Both the position numbers and the translations under genes were made by a program. A stretch of 64,000 bases of DNA from a virus: the IMG/VR virus record IMGVR_UViG_3300027971_000029, positions 60,558 to 124,557 of that record. One strand, given 5' to 3'. The notes under the pieces were generated by a model that saw only the letters and a list, made by a program, of their open reading frames with translations, did not search any database and was not told the DNA's origin. Below, in pieces: positions 16,341-39,040 of the stretch (positions within the stretch are counted from its first letter, which is position 1; each line of letters opens with the position of its first letter).

Positions 16341-16424
16341 TGGTGCGAGTGGCGGGACTCGAACCCGCATACCTTGCGGCGGCAGATTTTAAGTCTGCTG
16401 TGTATACCATTCCACCACACTCGC
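16341..16424 (-). tRNA. tRNA-Leu(UAA)
   Basis: Acceptor GCGAGTG pairs with CACTCGC, discriminator A and encoded CCA. Anticodon loop CTTAAAA. Long variable arm as expected for Leu. Leftmost gene of the tRNA locus. Confidence 0.95.
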
Positions 16425-16429
16425 TTGAT

Positions 16430-16504
16430 TGGTCCGGCGTGAGAGAATCGAACTCCCATCAGAAGGGTAGAAGCCTACTGTACTATCCATTGTACTAACG
16501 CCAG
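16430..16504 (-). tRNA. tRNA-Arg(UCU)
   Basis: Acceptor CTGGCGT/ACGCCGG (one U-G pair), D stem GTAC/GTAC, anticodon loop CTTCTAC, T stem GGGAG/CTCTC, encoded CCA. The anticodon stem GTAGG/CCTTC has a U28-U42 mismatch. Confidence 0.88.
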
Positions 16505-16510
16505 AATATT

Positions 16511-16777
16511 TTATTTGAATATTGCAGACCACTTCTGCAATTTTTGTCGTTTAAGACCTGATGCATTCAGTAATTCTTCTCGGTTAATCATACCTGATTC
16601 AACCATCAATTCAATCATGCAATGCAAGTCACCTAACTCTTCAGTTAATCGTTGCTTATTTGTACGCTCATTGTACATTTCATTTAGACCAAATCGGAAA
16701 CACTTGCTAATAGCCTGTGTGACCTCTGCACATTCTTCCTGTGCAATCAACATAATTTCTCTATCAACATCATTCAT
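16511..16777 (-). CDS. MazG-like NTP pyrophosphohydrolase, 88 aa
   Basis: IAQEECAEVTQAISKCFRFG and LTEELGDLHCMIELMVESG form the E-x2-E...E-x2-D pattern of the MazG/all-alpha NTP-PPase fold that hydrolyses nucleoside triphosphates. AGGAG lies 8 nt upstream of the ATG at 16777; the longer open frame runs into the tRNA-Leu(UAG) region. It sits between two tRNA genes. Possibly lowers (p)ppGpp or cleans the dNTP pool. Confidence 0.8.
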   Translation of the reverse strand: MNDVDREIMLIAQEECAEVTQAISKCFRFGLNEMYNERTNKQRLTEELGDLHCMIELMVESGMINREELLNASGLKRQKLQKWSAIFK

Positions 16778-16835
16778 TGTGCTTTCTCCTAATGAATGCA
16801 TTATAACACAACCACACAGACTTGTGTGGCAATAA

Positions 16836-16919
16836 TGGTGCCCCAAGAGAGACTCGAACTCTCAATCCTTTCGGCACTGGTTTCTAAGACCAGCGTGTAT
16901 ACCATTCCACCATCGGGGC
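16836..16919 (-). tRNA. tRNA-Leu(UAG)
   Basis: Acceptor GCCCCGA/TTGGGGC, anticodon stem GCTGGT with loop CTTAGAA, long variable arm, encoded CCA. Confidence 0.95.
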
Positions 16920-16946
16920 ATAAATTTGCATTGCTTTTAAATTATA

Positions 16947-17141
16947 TTCAACATCTCGTAGCCAGGATTCTGTTTTTACCCTAACATTAATCTTTGCCAC
17001 AACCCGAATCAATAGCGCAAGTGTTGCCTGACTCTGTTTGTGTTGCTTGTTATATCACGGTAGTTTAATGCTTTCGCTCCTACACACACTTGCCACAAGT
17101 CCTGAACTTCCTCTGTTACCAGCGTTAGGTCGGATGTTGAA
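16947..17141 (-). ncRNA. rnpB: RNase P RNA-like ncRNA (minimal rnpB)
   Basis: A 195-nt RNA inside the tRNA array. The ends pair perfectly over 9 bp (P1: UUCAACAUC with GAUGUUGAA). Next come a P2-type helix CCUAAC/GUUAGG and a mini P3 hairpin CUG-GUAA-CAG. It has the two universal RNase P core blocks in the right order: AGGAAGUUCAGGACU (compare AGGAAAGUCCGGGCU in E. coli) and ACAGAAUCCUGGCU (compare ACAGAACCCGGCUU). The P4 helix equivalent is kept by compensating changes (CAGGA/UCCUG against CCGGG/CCCGG). A CAAACAGAG block resembles conserved region II, and a distant pair GCAAGUGU/ACACUUGC closes the middle. Much shorter than bacterial RNase P RNA (about 350-400 nt). Expected role: 5' trimming of the phage tRNAs. 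No promoter of its own is obvious. Confidence 0.85.
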
Positions 17142-17147
17142 ATTCTT

Positions 17148-17223
17148 TGGTGCTACCTAGAGGAATCGAACCTCTTTCAATGGTTCTTCAGACCACCGCT
17201 ATGACCACATCAGCTAAAGTAGC
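17148..17223 (-). tRNA. tRNA-Phe(GAA)
   Basis: Acceptor GCTACTT/AGGTAGC, anticodon loop CTGAAGA closed by GTGGT/ACCAT, T loop TTCGATT, encoded CCA. Lies 6 nt upstream of the RNase P RNA-like gene. Confidence 0.95.
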
Positions 17224-17224
17224 A

Positions 17225-17298
17225 TGGTGCTCTCACCGAGAATTGAACTCAGAATTCATCCTTACCAAGGATGTGTTATACCACTTAACTATGAGAGC
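17225..17298 (-). tRNA. tRNA-Thr(GGU)
   Basis: Acceptor GCTCTCA/TGAGAGC, anticodon stem CATCC/GGATG with loop TTGGTAA, T loop TTCAATT, encoded CCA. One nucleotide from tRNA-Phe. Confidence 0.95.
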
Positions 17299-17403
17299 GA
17301 TTGAATTTGTAAGTAGTTTCACCCATATTATTGAAACCATTCACCTTAGTATATAAAGCCGGCAAGGTCTCGGTACGCCACTTGGGATACTCAACAAAGG
17401 TGC

Positions 17404-17498
17404 TCCGATGCGTTTACGGGACTCGAACCCGTCCTTCTTTTTCATTAGTTGGCTCTTCGAAGAAGCCTTCTAGCGAGTCTTTCTCTTGCTGACACTTA
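17404..17498 (-). pseudogene. Degenerate tRNA-like element, Arg(UCG)-type
   Basis: The anticodon arm GGCTT-CTTCGAA-GAGCC (anticodon UCG) and the T arm ACGGG-TTCGAGT-CCCGT are intact, joined by an 18-nt variable region. The D region folds only as AGCxxGAG/CTCGCT without the GG dinucleotide. I find no 7-bp acceptor stem and no CCA. It looks like a decayed tRNA or a tRNA-derived RNA. The 105 nt further left (17299-17403) hold a GTTTCA/TGAAAC hairpin but no gene. Confidence 0.5.
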
Positions 17499-17505
17499 CA
17501 AAACT

Positions 17506-17580
17506 TGGTACCTTGTGACGGGATTGAACCGCCGACCTTCTCCGTGTAAAAGAGTTACTCTACCGCTGAGTTAACAAGGC
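17506..17580 (-). tRNA. tRNA-Val(UAC)
   Basis: Acceptor GCCTTGT/ACAAGGT, D stem ACTC/GAGT, anticodon loop TTTACAC, T stem GGCGG/CCGTC, encoded CCA. Confidence 0.92.
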
Positions 17581-17583
17581 AAA

Positions 17584-18159
17584 TTACATAGTGGGACCGT
17601 TGCCGTTTTTAAAGCCAACGGAACCACCTTCTTCATTGATTCTCTTAATCACATCTTCAAAGAGAATTGGTCTAAAATCTGTTTGTTCTACACAAACACA
17701 ATGGTAACGGGTGTCAATTTCATATTCACCCCACACTTCAGTCTTCACACGGTTTGAATGGGTGTGACCATGAATGTTTGTACCAAAACGACCTAGACTG
17801 TCACTATGAATTGGGATATGACTAAGAATCATTCCATTCATTACATGATATGCTCTCAATTCACGAAAATGAATTCTGTATTCATCATCACGAAAGATAT
17901 CATGGTTACCACGAATCAGAACTTTATCACCATTCAGCCTGTGCATGATGCTAAGTGCCTTTCGGTTGATTACAACATCACCGAGGTGGTACACTTTATC
18001 ATTTGGTCGAACAGTTTCGTTCCATCGCTTGACCATTTCTTCATCCATATCTTCTGGATTGTCCCATGGTCTTAATTTCGTTACTCCGTCATCACGAAGA
18101 AACTTACACACTCCAGCATGACCAAAATGTGTGTCACTTGTTAAAAATACTGAAGGCAT
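17584..18159 (-). CDS. Metallophosphoesterase (calcineurin-like), 191 aa
   Basis: Metal-binding blocks in order: SDTHFGHAG (D-x-H), VYHLGDVV (GD), LIRGNHDIF (GNHD), ILSHIPIH and IHGHTHSNR (GHxH). This is the full two-metal site of calcineurin-like phosphoesterases. Related phage enzymes act on phosphoesters of nucleotides or nucleic-acid ends; the substrate here is not evident. Located among the tRNA genes, which would suit an RNA-processing role, but that is speculation. Confidence 0.88.
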   Translation of the reverse strand: MPSVFLTSDTHFGHAGVCKFLRDDGVTKLRPWDNPEDMDEEMVKRWNETVRPNDKVYHLGDVVINRKALSIMHRLNGDKVLIRGNHDIFRDDEYRIHFRELRAYHVMNGMILSHIPIHSDSLGRFGTNIHGHTHSNRVKTEVWGEYEIDTRYHCVCVEQTDFRPILFEDVIKRINEEGGSVGFKNGNGPTM

Positions 18160-18182
18160 AATTTTCTCCTATTAATTCGCTT

Positions 18183-18258
18183 TGGGTTGTGCTATGAGGA
18201 TTGAACTCATACTATCTCGGTCACAGCGAGAGGTGCAGACCACTACACTAAGCACAAC
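18183..18258 (-). tRNA. tRNA-His(GUG)
   Basis: Acceptor TTGTGCT/AGCACAA, with C73 and an encoded G at -1, the hallmark of tRNA-His. Anticodon loop CTGTGAC on stem TCTCG/CGAGA, encoded CCA. Confidence 0.95.
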
Positions 18259-18275
18259 CCAAAACAAATTGGTAT

Positions 18276-18283
18276 CATAAATA
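18276..18283 (+). promoter_or_regulatory. Late-promoter-like box (CATAAATA)
   Basis: CATAAATA on the plus strand, one base from the T4 late box TATAAATA. It lies 5 nt before the ATG of the plus-strand gene at 18289, so the predicted message would be leaderless; a coincidental match is possible. Confidence 0.45.
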
Positions 18284-18288
18284 TAAGG

Positions 18289-18531
18289 ATGTTTTGGACC
18301 ATTGTCATCATAAGCGTTGGTATTATATCACCAAACATTCAATATGTGGGGCAATTTACAGAAGAAGCCCAATGTACGAATGCTTTGGCAACTCTGAAGA
18401 CTCAAACTTATCCACCGCAAGTAAAACTAACATGCGCTCAATTTCCTGAGCCACCGATACCTCCTGCGCCACCGCCACCAGCTAAAGTCACACCAAAAGA
18501 ATCAATATCTTCAAAAGATGCTAAGAAATGA
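18289..18531 (+). CDS. Small anchored protein with proline-rich tail, 80 aa
   Basis: MFWTIVIISVGIISPNIQYV is a signal or anchor, followed by FTEEAQCTNALATLKTQTY and VKLTCAQ (two Cys), then a Pro-rich stretch (PEPPIPPAPPPPAKVTPKE). The first part has the same layout as the small two-Cys proteins at 4260 and 4466. One of only three clear plus-strand genes; it overlaps the next one by 4 nt. Function unknown, perhaps a periplasm-spanning lysis or virion protein. Confidence 0.65.
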   Translation: MFWTIVIISVGIISPNIQYVGQFTEEAQCTNALATLKTQTYPPQVKLTCAQFPEPPIPPAPPPPAKVTPKESISSKDAKK

Positions 18532-19019
18532 TTGACCCGTTTACAGCATTTGCATTAGCACAAGGTGCTGTTGCTGGTATTAAAAAAGCAATTGCATTAG
18601 GCAAAGACATTAATGGTCTTATACATGAATTCAGTGCATTCTACAAAGCCGCTGATGATGTACATCACTCGGCAGTAAAAGCTAAAATAGATTCTATTCG
18701 CATGAGTAATGCTGAGATAAGTGCCAGAGCATTACAAATTGCTATGGCATCAAGAGCATTAAGACAACATGAAAAAGAACTCAAAGACATTCTATTTTGG
18801 TCTGGTAATGCTGAAGTCTATTATGAAATGCAAGCAGAACGAAAAAGAATGATAGATGAGCGTCAAGCAGAAGAAAAAAGAGTAGAAGAGCAAAAACAAA
18901 AAGACCGTGAAGCCAAAGCAAGGGCTATGATGGGCACTCTTTGGATTATGGGTTCTCTTTGCATTGTCATACCAATGTGTACAATTCTCTTTCAACTGAT
19001 AACAGTCAAACATTTATAA
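18528..19019 (+). CDS. DPxTAFAxAQ-type membrane protein, 163 aa (paralogue of 38363-39040)
   Basis: MIDPFTAFALAQGAVAGIKK at the N-terminus matches MDPITAFAMAQAAIGAIRKG in the minus-strand protein at 38363-39040. Both have a long charged helical middle (here MQAERKRMIDERQAEEKRVE) and a C-terminal membrane helix (MGTLWIMGSLCIVIPMCTIL). Family members occur in T4-like marine phages next to structural genes. Virion or lysis association is inferred from the paralogue's neighbours. Confidence 0.7.
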   Translation: MIDPFTAFALAQGAVAGIKKAIALGKDINGLIHEFSAFYKAADDVHHSAVKAKIDSIRMSNAEISARALQIAMASRALRQHEKELKDILFWSGNAEVYYEMQAERKRMIDERQAEEKRVEEQKQKDREAKARAMMGTLWIMGSLCIVIPMCTILFQLITVKHL

Positions 19020-19093
19020 TGGAGCGGAGTGAGAGAATCGAACTCTCAACGGAAGATTGGAAATCTACAGTTTTACCATTAAACTAACCCCGC
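19020..19093 (-). tRNA. tRNA-Gly(UCC)
   Basis: Acceptor GCGGGGT/ACTCCGC, discriminator U, anticodon loop TTTCCAA, T stem GAGAG/CTCTC, encoded CCA. Anticodon stem GTAGA/TCTTC has a U28-U42 mismatch, as in tRNA-Arg(UCU). Its 3' end abuts the stop of the convergent plus-strand gene. Confidence 0.9.
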
Positions 19094-19097
19094 AAAT

Positions 19098-19135
19098 GCA
19101 CCGATGCTTATTCAAGCAGAAGCAATGTTCGGTGC
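19098..19135 (-). other. Stem-loop between two tRNA-Gly genes
   Basis: GCACCGA pairs with TCGGTGC, and inside it TGCTT pairs with AAGCA, giving a long hairpin. It may be a processing signal or the remains of a tRNA. About 40 nt to its left hold nothing I recognise. Confidence 0.4.
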
Positions 19136-19175
19136 CACACAAAGGCAAGATTTAAAAAGAGCCTGCACTCTATAC

Positions 19176-19250
19176 TGGAGCGGGTAGAGGGAATCGAACC
19201 CTCAACTAAACCTTGGCAAGGTCTTGTGTTACCACTAGCACCATACCCGC
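19176..19250 (-). tRNA. tRNA-Gly(GCC)
   Basis: Acceptor GCGGGTA/TACCCGC, discriminator U, anticodon loop TTGCCAA on stem AGACC/GGTTT, T stem GAGGG/CCCTC, encoded CCA. Confidence 0.94.
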
Positions 19251-19253
19251 ATA

Positions 19254-19742
19254 CTACGCCTCAGCTAATTCTTGTTCAGCCAAGATTCTTTTCAGTCTAT
19301 CAGCACAGAAACTTGCGGCTGGCGCATCTGGCTTGACCATTGGTGTCACATTACATGTACCTTTGATATAACCAATTGCTTGTTGCACTACGCAAGAACT
19401 TCCGTGTTCATCAGATTTGTTCAAGTCCAAATGAACTTCAACATGTCTATCTTCAAGCACATCGGCTAACGATTGAAACAATTCTGAAACCTTGTAGACT
19501 TCAGTCATCAATCTCATAGCAGGTTTGCTTTTCTTGTGGTCATAATCTAATTCACGAGTTAAAAAACCGAAAATCTTACAGCCATGGCGTCCATCAATAT
19601 GAACTACAACAGCCAATGCATAATCTGCATACCACACGCCGTCAACTCTAACTCTTTCTGAATCAGCACCGAGATATACTTTCGTGTCAGGTCCTTGATT
19701 CACAATGAATTGTTTCACTTTTTCGATTTCAAAATTTTTCAT
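19254..19742 (-). CDS. RNase H-like protein of the DUF458/YkuK type, 162 aa
   Basis: VYLGADSERV (first catalytic-like Asp), VEVHLDLNKSDEHGSS and MVKPDAPAASFCADRLKR are the three blocks of the YkuK/DUF458 family, which is predicted to have an RNase H-like fold. The acidic residues D26 and D104 or so would bind metal. It could process RNA; lying inside the tRNA locus makes this plausible but unproven. Length fits the family. Confidence 0.75.
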   Translation of the reverse strand: MKNFEIEKVKQFIVNQGPDTKVYLGADSERVRVDGVWYADYALAVVVHIDGRHGCKIFGFLTRELDYDHKKSKPAMRLMTEVYKVSELFQSLADVLEDRHVEVHLDLNKSDEHGSSCVVQQAIGYIKGTCNVTPMVKPDAPAASFCADRLKRILAEQELAEA

Positions 19743-19758
19743 AGATACTTCTTTCTTA

Positions 19759-19833
19759 TGGCACCCCGCCAGGGATTCGAACCCCGTCCCACGGTTTTGG
19801 AGACCGTCATGCTGCCGTTAACACCAGCGAGAT
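19759..19833 (-). tRNA. tRNA-Trp(CCA)
   Basis: Acceptor ATCTCGC/GCGGGGT with two U-G pairs, discriminator G, anticodon stem ACGGT/ACCGT with loop CTCCAAA, encoded CCA. Confidence 0.93.
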
Positions 19834-19836
19834 ATA

Positions 19837-19912
19837 TGGTCCTCTCGAAAGGAATCGAACCTTAGGTCTTTCGGTTATCAGCCGAATGCTCTACCATTAA
19901 GCTACAAGAGGA
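19837..19912 (-). tRNA. tRNA-Ile(GAU)
   Basis: Acceptor TCCTCTT/GAGAGGA, anticodon stem TTCGG/CCGAA with loop CTGATAA, T loop TTCGATT, encoded CCA. Confidence 0.94.
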
Positions 19913-19916
19913 AACT

Positions 19917-19991
19917 TGGCGGGTCCTGAGAGAATCGAACTCCCACTCGTAGGTTCGTAGCCTACTGTAATATCCATTTTACTAAAGACCC
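19917..19991 (-). tRNA. tRNA-Arg(ACG)
   Basis: Acceptor GGGTCTT/AGGACCC, discriminator G, anticodon stem GTAGG/CCTAC with loop CTACGAA, encoded CCA. The A34 would need host TadA to become inosine and read CGU, CGC and CGA. Confidence 0.94.
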
Positions 19992-19995
19992 ATAT

Positions 19996-20070
19996 TGGTG
20001 GTGATAGTTGGATTCGAGCCAACGACCTACTGCGTATGAAGCAGTTGCACTACCGCTGTGCTATATCACC
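19996..20070 (-). tRNA. tRNA-Met(CAU), probably elongator
   Basis: Acceptor GGTGATA/TATCACC fully paired, anticodon stem ACTGC/GCAGT with loop TTCATAC, T stem GTTGG/CCAAC, encoded CCA. One of three CAU tRNAs. Confidence 0.92.
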
Positions 20071-20074
20071 ATAT

Positions 20075-20150
20075 TGGTTGCAGAGGCAGGATTCGAACCT
20101 GCGGTTCTTGGCTTATGAGACCAAGCGGATGACCACTTCCATACTCTGCG
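20075..20150 (-). tRNA. tRNA(CAU) with unpaired C1-A72, initiator-like
   Basis: Acceptor CGCAGAG/CTCTGCA leaves a C1-A72 mismatch, the feature that marks bacterial initiator tRNA. Anticodon loop CTCATAA. It lacks the three G-C pairs of classic initiators (stem TTGGT/GCCAA) and has G11-C24 rather than A11-U24. Encoded CCA. Identity between initiator Met and Ile2 is open. Confidence 0.88.
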
Positions 20151-20155
20151 ACAAT

Positions 20156-20232
<77 letters not shown>

Positions 20233-20241
20233 ATAAAAACT

Positions 20242-20315
20242 TGGTGCCCCATGACAGAATCGAACTGCCGTAACCTGATTACAAAACAGGTGTAATACCA
20301 TTATACTAATAGGGC
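20242..20315 (-). tRNA. tRNA-Thr(UGU)
   Basis: Acceptor GCCCTAT/ATGGGGC, anticodon loop TTTGTAA, T stem GGCAG/CTGTC, encoded CCA. The last pair of the anticodon stem (CCTGT/TCAGG) is U-U. Confidence 0.92.
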
Positions 20316-20324
20316 GAAATAGGT

Positions 20325-20401
20325 GTCGGGCTTCCACCGACTGCTAATCAAACTACTCTGAACTCAGAGGTGATTAATCTGCCTTGATACAATCTTCAAG
20401 G
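20325..20401 (-). ncRNA. Structured spacer RNA candidate between tRNA genes
   Basis: Three hairpins in 77 nt on the minus strand: CCTTGA/TCAAGG, a TAATCA/TGATTA stem enclosing CTCTGA/TCAGAG, and GTCGG/CCGAC with a 7-nt loop. No tRNA fold and no ORF. It may be a small stable RNA like the extra RNAs in the T4 tRNA cluster, or a set of processing stems. Confidence 0.45.
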
Positions 20402-20409
20402 ACTTTTAT

Positions 20410-20487
20410 TGGTCTGTGTGGTTGGATTCGAACCAACGGCTCCTCACTTCCAAGGCGAGATGTCTGACCTGACTGACATACACACAG
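20410..20487 (-). tRNA. tRNA with UGG anticodon (Pro), second copy
   Basis: Acceptor CTGTGTG/CACACAG, D stem TGTC/GACA, anticodon stem CTCGC/GTGAG with loop CTTGGAA, T stem GTTGG/CCAAC, encoded CCA. Its sequence differs widely from the other UGG tRNA, so it is not a recent duplicate. Confidence 0.85.
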
Positions 20488-20493
20488 ATAAAA

Positions 20494-20567
20494 TGGTGGA
20501 GGATAAGAGAATCGAACTCTTGTGACTAACTTGCAAGGCTAGTATAATACCATTATATGAATCCCCC
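20494..20567 (-). tRNA. tRNA-Ala(UGC)
   Basis: Acceptor GGGGGAT/ATCCTCC, anticodon stem CTAGC/GT TAG-type with loop CTTGCAA, T loop TTCGATT, encoded CCA. The G3-U70 pair, the main alanine identity element, is present. Confidence 0.95.
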
Positions 20568-20623
20568 GAAATATGTGATTGACTACTTATCTCATTATAC
20601 GCCATCAATCAAGGCGAGTTATA

Positions 20624-20699
20624 TGGCTCCACAGGGTGGGTTCGAACCACCGACCAAATGATTAACAGTCATCTACTCTACCGACTGAGCTACTGCGGA
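20624..20699 (-). tRNA. tRNA-Asn(GUU)
   Basis: Acceptor TCCGCAG/CTGTGGA, discriminator G, anticodon stem GATGA/TCATT with loop CTGTTAA, T stem GGTGG/CCACC, encoded CCA. The 56-nt gap to tRNA-Ala shows nothing recognisable. Confidence 0.95.
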
Positions 20700-20705
20700 A
20701 TATTC

Positions 20706-21068
20706 TTAAACTAAATCGTGTGTCAAATTTACGCTAGTCGAGTAGTAGCCGTTAGACTCACCAAACCAACGAACATCAACATAACCTTTGCGTGTTGCAA
20801 ATTTGTAGAATGTCCACTCAACACACTCGTGGTTCATAGCATCAAACTCAACTGGTGTTTCACCTGATACCTCTTCAGCCATCAATAGTGGTTCACCTTC
20901 TAAGTCTGACAAGTCACCAACGATATCTTCTATCGAAACAGACTCACAACAATCTTGGTAATGAAGGAAAGTGAATACTTCTTTATCATTAGCAAATGTC
21001 ATTGTTTCGCCATCTTGTGTCACCGATGTGAACACTTTACCTATCATATTCTCTATATTCATTTTCAA
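20706..21068 (-). CDS. DUF7448-type protein, 118-120 aa
   Basis: IGKVFTSVTQDGETMTFAND, FLHYQDCCESVSIEDIVGDL, then LLMAEEVSGET, VEWTFYKFATRKGYVDVRWF and GESNGYYSTSV. The HYQDCCE..IEDI.GDL / WTFYKF / SNGYYS combination is a widespread small family in phages and bacteria with no known function. The start may be the Met at 21062 rather than 21068. Located among the tRNA genes. Confidence 0.75.
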   Translation of the reverse strand: MKMNIENMIGKVFTSVTQDGETMTFANDKEVFTFLHYQDCCESVSIEDIVGDLSDLEGEPLLMAEEVSGETPVEFDAMNHECVEWTFYKFATRKGYVDVRWFGESNGYYSTSVNLTHDLV

Positions 21069-21085
21069 CTCCTTACAAAAAAACT

Positions 21086-21160
21086 TGGCGGTTCGTAGGG
21101 GTAACGATCCCCTTCTTTATGCGTGACAGGCATATGTGCGTCCATGAACACTTACGAACC
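21086..21160 (-). tRNA. tRNA-Asp(GUC)
   Basis: Acceptor GGTTCGT/ACGAACC, discriminator G, anticodon stem TATGC/GCATA with loop CTGTCAC, T stem AGGGG/CCCCT, encoded CCA. The T loop ATCGTTA departs from the usual TTCGANN. Confidence 0.88.
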
Positions 21161-21164
21161 AAAT

Positions 21165-21250
21165 TGGTGGAGACAGATGGATTCGAACCACCGTGCTTTT
21201 TACAGAACAGATTTACAGTCTGCCGCCTTCAGCCACTCGGCCATATCTCC
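21165..21250 (-). tRNA. tRNA-Tyr(GUA)
   Basis: Acceptor GGAGATA/TGTCTCC, anticodon stem GCAGA/TCTGT with loop CTGTAAA, long variable arm, T loop TTCGAAT, encoded CCA. Confidence 0.95.
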
Positions 21251-21258
21251 AAAACTTT

Positions 21259-21333
21259 TGGTAGGGGTACAGAGAATCGAACTCTGATTAATAGGTTAAA
21301 AGCCTACTACTTTAGCCGTTAAGTTATACCCCC
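21259..21333 (-). tRNA. tRNA-Lys(UUU)
   Basis: Acceptor GGGGGTA/TACCCCT, anticodon stem GTAGG/CCTAT with loop CTTTTAA, T stem CAGAG/CTCTG, encoded CCA. Confidence 0.95.
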
Positions 21334-21341
21334 AAACTTTA

Positions 21342-21422
21342 CCATAGAAAAACACATTAGTCTCAAAAAGCGTAACAGCAGTTTTCACCGACAGGCTTAT
21401 GAGATAATGCGTTTATCTATGG
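21342..21422 (-). ncRNA. tRNA-linked stem-loop RNA, copy A
   Basis: An 81-nt RNA starting with the CCA end of tRNA-Glu. CCATAGA pairs with TCTATGG, then AACGCATTA with TAATGTGTT (9 bp) and TCTCA with TGAGA, with an inner AAGC/GCTT part carrying a GAAA loop. Copy B at 22315-22397 has the same two outer helices with base changes that keep pairing, but a different head. Position and design recall the extra stable RNAs of the T4 tRNA cluster. Function unknown. Confidence 0.6.
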
Positions 21423-21494
21423 TACTCAGTACGGGAGTCGAACCCGTCTTTCCAGATTGAAAGTCTAGCGACCTAACCGATAGTCGAACTGAGC
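21420..21494 (-). tRNA. tRNA-Glu(UUC)
   Basis: Acceptor GCTCAGT/ACTGAGT, D stem GACT/GGTC, anticodon stem CTAGA/TCTGG with loop CTTTCAA, T stem ACGGG/CCCGT, encoded CCA. The CCA is also the first three bases of stem-loop RNA copy A. Confidence 0.94.
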
Positions 21495-21498
21495 ATAA

Positions 21499-21521
21499 GC
21501 AATGCAAATTTTTAAAGAACT
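21499..21521 (-). promoter_or_regulatory. boxA-like antitermination leader, copy 1
   Basis: On the minus strand AGTTCTTTAAAAATTTG followed by CATTGC, 19 nt downstream of the predicted start of the transcript from 21547-21574. It resembles the rrn boxA (E. coli TGCTCTTTAACAATTT), and more closely the form seen in betaproteobacterial rRNA operons. The same 23 nt occur before tRNA-Gln. Confidence 0.65.
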
Positions 21522-21546
21522 TATCGATTTCTCAACCGATGCATGA

Positions 21547-21574
21547 AGTATAACAGAACTGTAGGTTTTGTCAA
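21547..21574 (-). promoter_or_regulatory. Sigma70 promoter of the second tRNA transcription unit
   Basis: TTGACA (21574-21569), 16 nt, TATACT (21552-21547). It transcribes leftward through the boxA-like leader into tRNA-Glu and the following tRNAs. Confidence 0.85.
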
Positions 21575-21625
21575 CATCTTTTTTTCATACTGTTACAAAA
21601 ATACAACACAACTTCTATTTGCAAT

Positions 21626-21702
21626 TGGAGTGCGTGACAGGAATCGAACCTGCATAAAACGGATTTGCAATCCGACACCTAACCGTTCAGTAGCACACGC
21701 AC
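21626..21702 (-). tRNA. tRNA-Cys(GCA)
   Basis: Acceptor GTGCGTG/CACGCAC, discriminator U, anticodon loop TTGCAAA, T stem GCAGG/CCTGT, encoded CCA. The D stem pairs poorly. Confidence 0.88.
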
Positions 21703-21709
21703 ATAAAAT

Positions 21710-21788
21710 TGGTACCCTTGCTCAGATTCGAACTGAGAGAACTCTTCCTTTTGAGAGAAGCGACTTTACCAGATTTGTCCACAAGGGC
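21710..21788 (-). tRNA. tRNA with CAA anticodon (Leu) and short variable arm
   Basis: Acceptor GCCCTTG/CAAGGGT, anticodon stem CTTCT/GGAAG with loop CTCAAAA, T stem CTCAG/CTGAG, encoded CCA. The variable region is only about 6 nt, whereas the two other Leu tRNAs here carry the normal long arm. D stem only 3 bp. Confidence 0.85.
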
Positions 21789-21789
21789 A

Positions 21790-21864
21790 TGGTAGACTGA
21801 AAGAGAATTGAACTCTTACTCGACCGATTATGAGTCGGCTGCTTTACCATTAAGCTATCAGTCT
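21790..21864 (-). tRNA. tRNA(CAU), probably Ile2
   Basis: Acceptor AGACTGA/TCAGTCT, anticodon stem GCCGA/TCGGT with loop CTCATAA, T stem AGAG/CTCT, encoded CCA. The anticodon arm is very close to that of bacterial tRNA-Ile2, whose C34 is changed to lysidine to read AUA. Its 5' end overlaps the stop region of the 82-aa gene by 7 nt. Confidence 0.88.
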
Positions 21865-22106
21865 TCTTTTTCTAAATCTTGTTCGAGTCTTTGTTCTTGT
21901 ATCGTTTTCTCTTTGAAAACTTTTCTAGGATTACTGCACATCACACATCTAGGATTACCACAATTCATAGCATGATGTTTTGCGAACTTGTGAGGTTCAT
22001 CAACAACAATGCCGAACTCTTTAGCAATCTTAACTTGTTTCTTCACTGCATTGTCTGTTTCGAAAATGCGTTTAGAATGCTTGATTTTTTCTTCTTCATG
22101 CGACAT
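21858..22106 (-). CDS. Small Cys-rich conserved phage protein, 82 aa
   Basis: MSHEEEKIKHSKRIFETDNA, then HKFAKHHAMNCGNPRCVMCS and NPRKVFKEKTIQEQRLEQDL. The HH..NCGNP+C..C.NPRK knot is a recurrent small phage family, probably zinc-binding. AGGAG lies 6 nt before the ATG at 22106; the longer open frame would run through tRNA-Ser genes. Role unknown. Confidence 0.75.
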   Translation of the reverse strand: MSHEEEKIKHSKRIFETDNAVKKQVKIAKEFGIVVDEPHKFAKHHAMNCGNPRCVMCSNPRKVFKEKTIQEQRLEQDLEKED

Positions 22107-22126
22107 ACCAACTCCTTTTAAGAAAA

Positions 22127-22214
22127 TGGCAGAGAGTATCAGATTCGAACTGATGCACCCATTTCTGAATGACGGTTTAGCAAACCGCTGGTTTAACCAC
22201 TCACCCAACTCTCT
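22127..22214 (-). tRNA. tRNA-Ser(GCU)
   Basis: Acceptor AGAGAGT/ACTCTCT, discriminator G, anticodon stem GCGGT/ACCGT with loop TTGCTAA, long variable arm, encoded CCA. Confidence 0.95.
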
Positions 22215-22221
22215 ATAAACT

Positions 22222-22310
22222 TGGCGGAAGAACTGAGATTCGAACTCAGGGACCTTGTTACAGTCGGCAGTTTTCAAGACTGCTGGTTTAAACCACTCAC
22301 CCACTCTTCC
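22222..22310 (-). tRNA. tRNA-Ser(UGA)
   Basis: Acceptor GGAAGAG/TTCTTCC, discriminator G, anticodon stem GCAGT/ACTGC with loop CTTGAAA, long variable arm, encoded CCA. Confidence 0.95.
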
Positions 22311-22314
22311 AATA

Positions 22315-22397
22315 TCATAGAAAAACACACTTCGAATACTGTACTAAACAGAAACTATCCATCACGGGCTCCCCCGCTGAAATGTGTTTATCTATGG
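22315..22397 (-). ncRNA. tRNA-linked stem-loop RNA, copy B
   Basis: An 83-nt RNA starting with the CCA end of tRNA-Gln. Outer helices CATAGA/TCTATG and AACACATTTC/GAAGTGTGTT match copy A (21342-21422) in position and mostly in sequence. The head differs: CGGG-GGAG-CCCG and CTGT-TTAGT-ACAG hairpins. Paired differences between copies support a selected RNA fold. Confidence 0.6.
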
Positions 22398-22468
22398 CAG
22401 GGGATACAAGAATCGAACTTGTACTAACAGATTCAAAGTCTGCTGTGCTACCACTACACAAATCCCCA
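22395..22468 (-). tRNA. tRNA-Gln(UUG)
   Basis: Anticodon stem GCAGA/TCTGT with loop CTTTGAA, discriminator G, T loop TTCGATT, encoded CCA. Acceptor TGGGGAT/ATCCCCT leaves U1-U72 unpaired; a weak first pair is typical of tRNA-Gln. First tRNA after the promoter at 22503. Confidence 0.94.
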
Positions 22469-38370: not shown

Positions 38371-39040
38371 TTCTTGACCTGCTGTATTGTTCTTTTAATT
38401 TTTGTTCTCTCTCATCTAATTCTCTTCTCTTCTGAGCAATCTCTTTTAATCTCCAATCCGGTTGAAGACTTGGTATGAAATTGTCTCCGTATTCTGGATG
38501 GTCTATCTTTCTCATTTCAACAACCCAAAATATTGAACCTAACCAAGACAAAAACACAAGAAACCCTATACCAGCCCATATGATTGCATCTCTATGCTTC
38601 TTCATCAACTCACGGCGTGCCCTGAGTTTTCTAGCTTCTTCAAGTTTTTCTTGTGCTTCTTGCTTTTCTTGTAAATCTCTTAGTCTACTTCTCTCTGTCT
38701 CAAACTCTGTCCACACAGCACCTAGTTCTGGTGGGCTATGATACACTAACATCTCTCTTAACTCTTCTTCCGCCATCTGAACTTGTTTGGCTCTAAGAAC
38801 ATTATCTAATGCCTTTGAGTTTAATCCTTGTCCTTTTTTCGGAACAACTTTTCTCTGCTCTTCTGCCGCTGTTCTTACAACATCTGCGGCATCCATAAAT
38901 CTACCTATGTGACCACTCACCTCATGGGCAACATCCATGACTTCTTTACCGGCTTGTTTCGCCTCCTTGTAGAAGGCTACACCTTTCCTGATAGCACCTA
39001 TGGCAGCCTGTGCCATGGCAAATGCAGTGATTGGATCCAT
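38363..39040 (-). CDS. DPxTAFAxAQ-type membrane protein, 225 aa (paralogue of 18528-19019)
   Basis: MDPITAFAMAQAAIGAIRKG is the family start. Then comes a long charged helix (ETERSRLRDLQEKQEAQEKL), a membrane span (IIWAGIGFLVFLSWLGSIFW) and a C-terminal charged tail with QKRRELDEREQKLKEQYSR. The shorter paralogue is in the tRNA locus. Possibly virion- or lysis-associated. Confidence 0.7.
   Translation of the reverse strand: MDPITAFAMAQAAIGAIRKGVAFYKEAKQAGKEVMDVAHEVSGHIGRFMDAADVVRTAAEEQRKVVPKKGQGLNSKALDNVLRAKQVQMAEEELREMLVYHSPPELGAVWTEFETERSRLRDLQEKQEAQEKLEEARKLRARRELMKKHRDAIIWAGIGFLVFLSWLGSIFWVVEMRKIDHPEYGDNFIPSLQPDWRLKEIAQKRRELDEREQKLKEQYSRSRNE

Follow-up and report, generated by a model that had tools for sequence, protein, structure and literature searches.

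A miniature RNA in a phage tRNA array, almost certainly homologous to RNase P RNA, and its family across phages

RNase P is a classic ribozyme that was discovered through work on phage and bacterial tRNAs. Its E. coli RNA, M1, is approximately 375 nt in length, and the type T RNase P RNA works with archaeal proteins. E. coli RNase P cleaves the tRNA precursors of phage T4 (PMC11143913), and the usual teaching is that the host enzyme processes phage tRNAs. The catalytic domain of the E. coli RNA cleaves by itself at reduced efficiency; once the specificity domain has been removed, a P6-like pairing helps this domain and P18 is dispensable, and the Pyrococcus catalytic domain, which lacks P18, is active (PMC5839562). 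No report of a phage RNase P RNA was found in the open literature, and text searches of papers on huge and jumbo phages yielded no mention of one; paywalled papers and most preprints lay outside the scope of this search, and an earlier description is possible.

The DNA analysed here (the window, 64,000 nucleotides) was taken from a virus record of 124,557 bases, the phage identity of which is supported by genes for a phage DNA polymerase, a UvsX-like recombinase, a DnaB-like helicase and a ribonucleotide reductase. On the minus strand, from 17141 down to 16947, lies a 195-nt RNA gene flanked by tRNA-Phe and tRNA-Leu. A preliminary description had read it as a phage RNase P RNA homologue, about half the size of bacterial RNase P RNAs and embedded among 29 tRNA genes. 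Both the size (195 nt against roughly 375 nt) and the setting were borne out, with ARAGORN counting 29 tRNAs, every one of them on the minus strand. Half of the spacers in the array measure 1-9 nt. Among these tRNA genes lies a protein-coding gene (window 19254-19742, minus strand) whose product has a Ribonuclease H-like domain (PF04308, E 5e-14).

16947..17141, minus strand: phage mini RNase P RNA gene, from P1 to P1'; covariance model R1 matches 16942-17147 (minus strand) with 228.8 bits, a match to its own model, as this copy is one of the nine sequences from which R1 was built
16341..22468, minus strand: array of 29 tRNA genes (ARAGORN), CCA encoded in 29 of 29; likely substrates

The RNase P topology first reported for this RNA (P1, P2, a GNRA-capped P3 and two core blocks in order) is present in full on the minus strand, the blocks being AGGAAGUUCAGGACU and then ACAGAAUCCUGGCU. 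That reading overlooked P5, the P6 pseudoknot, P7/P8, P15/L15, P16 and conserved region (CR) IV; the complete set of elements is P1-P5, the P6 pseudoknot, P7/P8, P15, P16, the GGU motif of L15, and CR I, CR IV and CR V. The nine-sequence set referred to below consists of the window copy and eight close relatives, with 52 named pairs that include the pseudoknots P4 and P6.

17133..17141, minus strand: P1 5' strand UUCAACAUC, paired with GAUGUUGAA over 9 bp exactly at the gene ends; compensatory change in 9 of 9 pairs
16947..16955, minus strand: P1 3' strand, partner of 17133-17141; covariation, nine-sequence set
17124..17129, minus strand: P2 5' strand CCUAAC, partner of 16980-16985; 100% paired, both-side changes in 2 of 6 pairs
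16980..16985, minus strand: P2 3' strand GUUAGG; covariation, nine-sequence set
17113..17122, minus strand: P3 hairpin with GNRA loop, CUG-GUAA-CAG; covariation analysis and sequence
17104..17113, minus strand: CR I GAGGAAGUUC; GAGGAAGYUC in 67 of 70 distinct members
17100..17104, minus strand: P4 5' strand CAGGA, pseudoknot with 16963-16967, the helix continuing beyond the bulged U; pairing in relatives
16963..16967, minus strand: P4 3' strand UCCUG; pairing in relatives and compensatory changes
17095..17099, minus strand: P5 5' strand, partner of 17046-17050; 3 of 5 pairs compensatory
17046..17050, minus strand: P5 3' strand; covariation, nine-sequence set
17086..17093, minus strand: P6 5' strand GCAAGUGU, pseudoknot with 17017-17024; 7 of 8 pairs compensatory
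17017..17024, minus strand: P6 3' strand ACACUUGC, within the P16 loop; covariation, nine-sequence set
17060..17083, minus strand: P7/P8 mini hairpin of 24 nt, sole remnant of the specificity domain; sequence and alignment
17038..17042, minus strand: P15 5' strand CACAA, partner of 16998-17002; position and sequence
16998..17005, minus strand: L15 GGGU (GGU motif for tRNA CCA) and P15 3' strand; CGGGU in 64 of 70 distinct members
17006..17034, minus strand: P16 hairpin GAGUC/GAUUC; 3 of 5 pairs compensatory
16985..16993, minus strand: CR IV AGAUUAAUG; AGAYNAATG in 69 of 70 distinct members, found by a search that itself demanded a similar motif
16959..16973, minus strand: CR V ACAGAAUCCUGGCUA; member comparison and sequence

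The helix order P4-P5-(P7)-P5'-P15-P2'-P4'-P1' matches the RNase P core, with P5 placed by covariation and P15 by position and sequence. CR IV (AGAUNAAUG) precedes P2', and P1, P2 and P3 surround the core, as in any RNase P RNA. The bulged U of P4 is read from the window sequence, and the CGGGU of L15 lies at 17002-17006. P15 does not vary in the close set, hence covariation there is neutral; its sequence varies in the wider set. The specificity domain, P7-P14 with CR II and CR III, is absent from the window RNA apart from the 24-nt P7/P8 hairpin, which is an insertion site in relatives. As a candidate for CR II, ACAGAGUC was rejected upon comparison with Salmonella rnpB, which places it on the L15/P16 5' side. 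P18 is absent from the window copy, in which 8 nt separate L15 and CR IV, and the P18 region is long enough for a helix in only 23 of 70 members.

Covariation is decisive here: the structure of the window RNA is not due to chance. In the nine-sequence set, standard pairs occupy 97.9% of pair cells (32-40% in slid structures), compensatory changes on both sides affect 29 of the 52 pairs (13.7 +/- 2.5 in shuffles, with 0 of 500 shuffles equally high), and the covariation score is 0.515 as compared with 0.159 in shuffles. The check originally suggested, a covariance model from related phages together with conservation of P1, P2 and P4, came out in favor of the fold, with 9 of 9 pairs of P1 and 2 of 6 pairs of P2 covarying and P4 97.7-99.0% paired. 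A covariance model cannot accommodate P4 and P6, and alignments fitted with R1 therefore test both pseudoknots free of that bias. In two such alignments of relatives, pairing in the 5-bp core of P4 reaches 97.7% and 99.0% of cells and includes compensatory changes, and P6 is paired in 75% and 63% of cells, with many gaps; jointly they lie far above slid controls. Nine different, fully Watson-Crick versions of P4 occur across members. The folding energy of the single sequence is only mildly low (z = -1.7), and single-sequence folding returned a weak, wrong structure because of the two pseudoknots.

A search with the Rfam RNase P models, also suggested at the outset, divided the family: the window copy has zero matches even at E <= 10, and relatives match at the same coordinates (E 1e-6 to 1e-52), one of them, L152, above the gathering score with 168.3 bits. 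The preliminary description had named a lack of matches at relaxed thresholds as refuting its reading; this outcome applies to the window copy, and the relatives overturn it. Further matches are those of L205 (70.7 bits), L088 (63.3 bits) and L165 (53.7 bits), as well as L153, L157, L116, L112, L219, L247, L226 and L232. L154 (E 3e-9) and L085 (E 4e-8) match as well, and their P1, P2, CR I and CR V closely resemble those of the window RNA. In the other direction, R1 does not recognise Salmonella rnpB (4.2 bits). Since neither the window copy nor R1 bridges the distance directly, it is the intermediates that establish homology. With support from compensatory changes in almost every helix, from the Rfam matches of relatives and from the tRNA-array context, the window RNA is almost certainly homologous to RNase P RNA, and the homologue proposed in the preliminary description stands.

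In order to survey the family, viral contigs were searched with a CR IV/CR V pattern, which yielded 94 stretches; R1 matches 80 loci among 97 sources at E < 1e-5. A second pattern, restricted to the P15/L15 region, yielded 117 stretches, and 45 of the 55 loci new to it match R1 at the same threshold. A strict CR I-CR V pattern search returned no matches. The family thus stands at about 125 loci in phage contigs, near-duplicates counted, and its full-length members mostly measure about 194 to 360 nt including insertions, with the window's 195 nt near the lower end. When the window RNA was compared with phage records by blastn, a meaningful match was obtained only in the 735-kb LR756501; matches in Escherichia and Tenacibaculum were short, lay inside protein genes and were taken as chance.

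In addition to these loci, the RNA is present, unannotated, in the complete genomes of five named phages, and in all five an Rfam bacterial RNase P match falls on its coordinates. In Stenotrophomonas phage DLP6 it occupies an unannotated gap ahead of tRNA-Arg (54.7 bits, E 7.6e-15 to the Rfam bacterial RNase P model), and in four Microbacterium phages, including A3Wally, Zooman and Big4, it lies between two tRNA genes (A3Wally, 72.0 bits, E 7e-20; the three others, E 4e-18 to 1e-13). The family is consequently common to many phages, beyond the phage of the window alone. The lack of an Rfam match for the window copy would be expected if the resemblance were fortuitous or if bacterial DNA had contaminated the viral contigs. 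These isolates and the covariation refute that reading, which we regard as practically negligible; in addition, R1 has no match at E <= 0.1 in other phage loci totalling 1.19 Mb, terminase is encoded on 9 of 15 records tested, and 16S rRNA occurs on none of 8 tested.

Comparison of the four Microbacterium copies by eye revealed compensatory changes in P4 (CCGGG/CCCGG to CCGGA/UCCGG), P5 (CACCC/GGGUG to CUCGG/CCGAG) and P6 (GAAUGACA/UGUCAUUC to GAAUCAUA/UAUGAUUC). They also display a coordinated register shift in P4 (GGAAAGUCC..GGCUUA in A3Wally, GGAAGUUCC..GGGCUA in Zooman), the hallmark of almost all members of the phage family. Such strong compensatory evolution, seen likewise in distant phages, largely refutes the idea that the RNA is the degenerating remnant of an rnpB gene captured from a bacterium, for which its small size, unusual sequence and variable presence among relatives could be cited; we hold a relic to be very improbable. 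With regard to presence, loci around the neighboring ATPase gene in relatives lack the RNA in the fragments examined, and the RNA therefore seems dispensable in some lineages. Taken as a whole, it constitutes a real, conserved and apparently undescribed phage gene family.

Several members deviate from the common form. A GIY-YIG endonuclease ORF interrupts the RNA gene within the P16 loop in L148 (1575-2210, minus strand), L170 and L171, and splits it between L15 and CR IV, the P18 position, in L166 (4972-5586, minus strand); these may be introns or tolerated insertions. The P7 mini hairpin carries tRNA-like insertions in L096 (336-688, minus strand), L114 (332-686, plus strand) and L167 (752-1004, minus strand), with a T-arm-like GGTTCGAATCC and acceptor-like ends, and with CCA in L096 and L114; ARAGORN does not call them. 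Different insertions occupy the same site in other members. tmRNA genes lie close to the RNA gene in L121 (1261-1644, minus strand) and L154 (1996-2307, minus strand); one of the two is permuted. Three members, L183 (82-291, plus strand), L179 (311-546, minus strand) and L180 (3650-3902, plus strand), are on contigs that were assigned to MAGs of Flavobacteriales, Roizmanbacteria and Bacteroidetes, and perhaps represent phage contigs inside these bins.

Linkage to tRNA genes extends across the family. tRNAs occur within 3 kb of 73 of 87 members, although these loci are tRNA-rich throughout and 52% of random positions have a tRNA no more than 500 nt away. All 622 tRNAs within 3 kb of the 87 members are on the same strand as the RNA and 0 on the opposite strand, a bias to which long one-strand blocks of phage genes would contribute. 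At many loci the RNA adjoins the end of a tRNA within a few bases, and its own ends could therefore be made by tRNA processing.

The protein partner RnpA (PF00825) was not found in the window's 124,557-base record. Among the carrier records searched, the only phage contig with RnpA is the 476-kb G017, which encodes a 99-aa protein that contains the RNR motif and is located next to a Clp protease (G017:C1:440379-440669, minus strand; locus L189:8377-8676). This contig has a terminase at 38520 and no 16S rRNA; its copy of the mini RNA lies at L105:3486-3707, and a complete phage RNase P is possible there. Two further RnpA matches among carriers sit in bacterial MAGs and are presumably the bacterium's own gene. 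Because RnpA was found in a single phage contig, most carriers probably use host RnpA.

Established for this RNA are its homology, its fold, which covariation defines, the conservation of catalytic and CCA-binding elements, and its linkage to tRNAs; it is probably a catalytic-domain-only RNase P ribozyme that trims the 5' ends of phage tRNAs, usually with host RnpA. In the proposed mechanism, the RNA would be co-transcribed with the tRNA array, fold around P4 and the CR I/IV/V core, and dock the 3' CCA of phage pre-tRNAs in the GGU loop of L15 in order to cut their 5' leaders, with host RnpA as the probable partner. The 8-bp P6 pseudoknot would stand in for the stiffening normally provided by the specificity domain. 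The presumed benefit is that tRNA maturation continues when the RNA of host RNase P is in short supply or broken down; that this is why the phage has its own RNA, keeping maturation running during host takeover, is a guess. The missing CR II/III and T-loop-binding specificity domain, a homology that depends on intermediates, the lack of RnpA in the window's record and the seeming dispensability of the RNA in some lineages count against this explanation, yet the parts kept (P4, CR I/IV/V, the CCA loop, a long P6) and lost (the specificity domain, P18) are a combination that published experiments allow (PMC5839562). Loss of that domain, the so far predicted status of the activity and the scarcity of members with their own RnpA would also suit a non-catalytic decoy or regulator that binds host RnpA or tRNAs and shuts down host RNase P. 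A protein sponge, however, needs no near-invariant P4 bulged U, CR V and GGU loop, a block of RNase P would hurt the phage's own closely spaced tRNAs, and the contig that encodes RnpA as well better fits an enzyme; we consider a decoy unlikely. Slightly less likely still is an RNase P ribozyme that acts chiefly on targets other than tRNA 5' leaders, such as itself, tmRNA, phage mRNAs or host RNAs. Cleavage-site choice does change without the specificity domain (PMC5839562), some members adjoin tmRNA genes and others lie away from tRNAs, but the CCA-binding loop indicates tRNA, as do the same-strand tRNAs that lie within 3 kb at 73 of 87 loci.

If trimming of tRNA 5' ends is correct, tRNA 5' maturation is a step under phage control, and the smallest members are natural minimal RNase P enzymes. 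On the evidence of the sequences, it is likely, somewhat less firmly than for the window RNA, that tailed phages broadly carry active ribozymes of this catalytic-domain-only type and that at least one huge phage carries both RNA and protein. A widespread viral RNase P RNA would alter the picture of phage tRNAs as substrates of host enzymes, help explain how closely packed tRNAs mature in tRNA-rich phages while the host is being taken over, and reveal a recurrent phage gene that current RNA libraries overlook. Natural RNAs of this kind would also help in studying the purpose of the specificity domain, and the family is directly testable as phages of Microbacterium foliorum carry it.

With bacterial class A RNase P RNA (Rfam RF00010; E. 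coli M1, rnpB), the phage RNA shares P1-P5, the P6 pseudoknot, the P15 GGU loop, P16, CR I/IV/V and a P4 with a bulged U. It differs in lacking P9-P14, CR II/III and P18, in its length of 195 nt, in being phage-encoded inside tRNA arrays, and, in nearly all members, in a P4 that is one register off (GGAAAGUC..GGCUUA to GGAAGUUC..GGCUA). The diverged RNase P RNAs of Patescibacteria/CPR likewise lose helices, including P12 and P18, and fall below standard model thresholds; these RNAs are bacterial, and about two-thirds lose the UGG (GGU) motif, which the phage family retains (PMC8172020). The type T archaeal RNA of Thermoproteaceae resembles the phage RNA in a degenerate specificity domain, a proposed P6 and the lack of P18 (PMC5839562), but is cellular and archaeal; the sequence comparison was through Rfam models only, in which the general archaeal model RF00373 gives sub-threshold matches to some phage members. 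Equal in domain content is the engineered E. coli catalytic-domain-only RNA (Eco CP RPR), in which a P6-like pairing aids activity and P18 is dispensable (PMC5839562). That RNA is artificial, whereas the phage RNA occurs naturally and its P6 is long and evolving.
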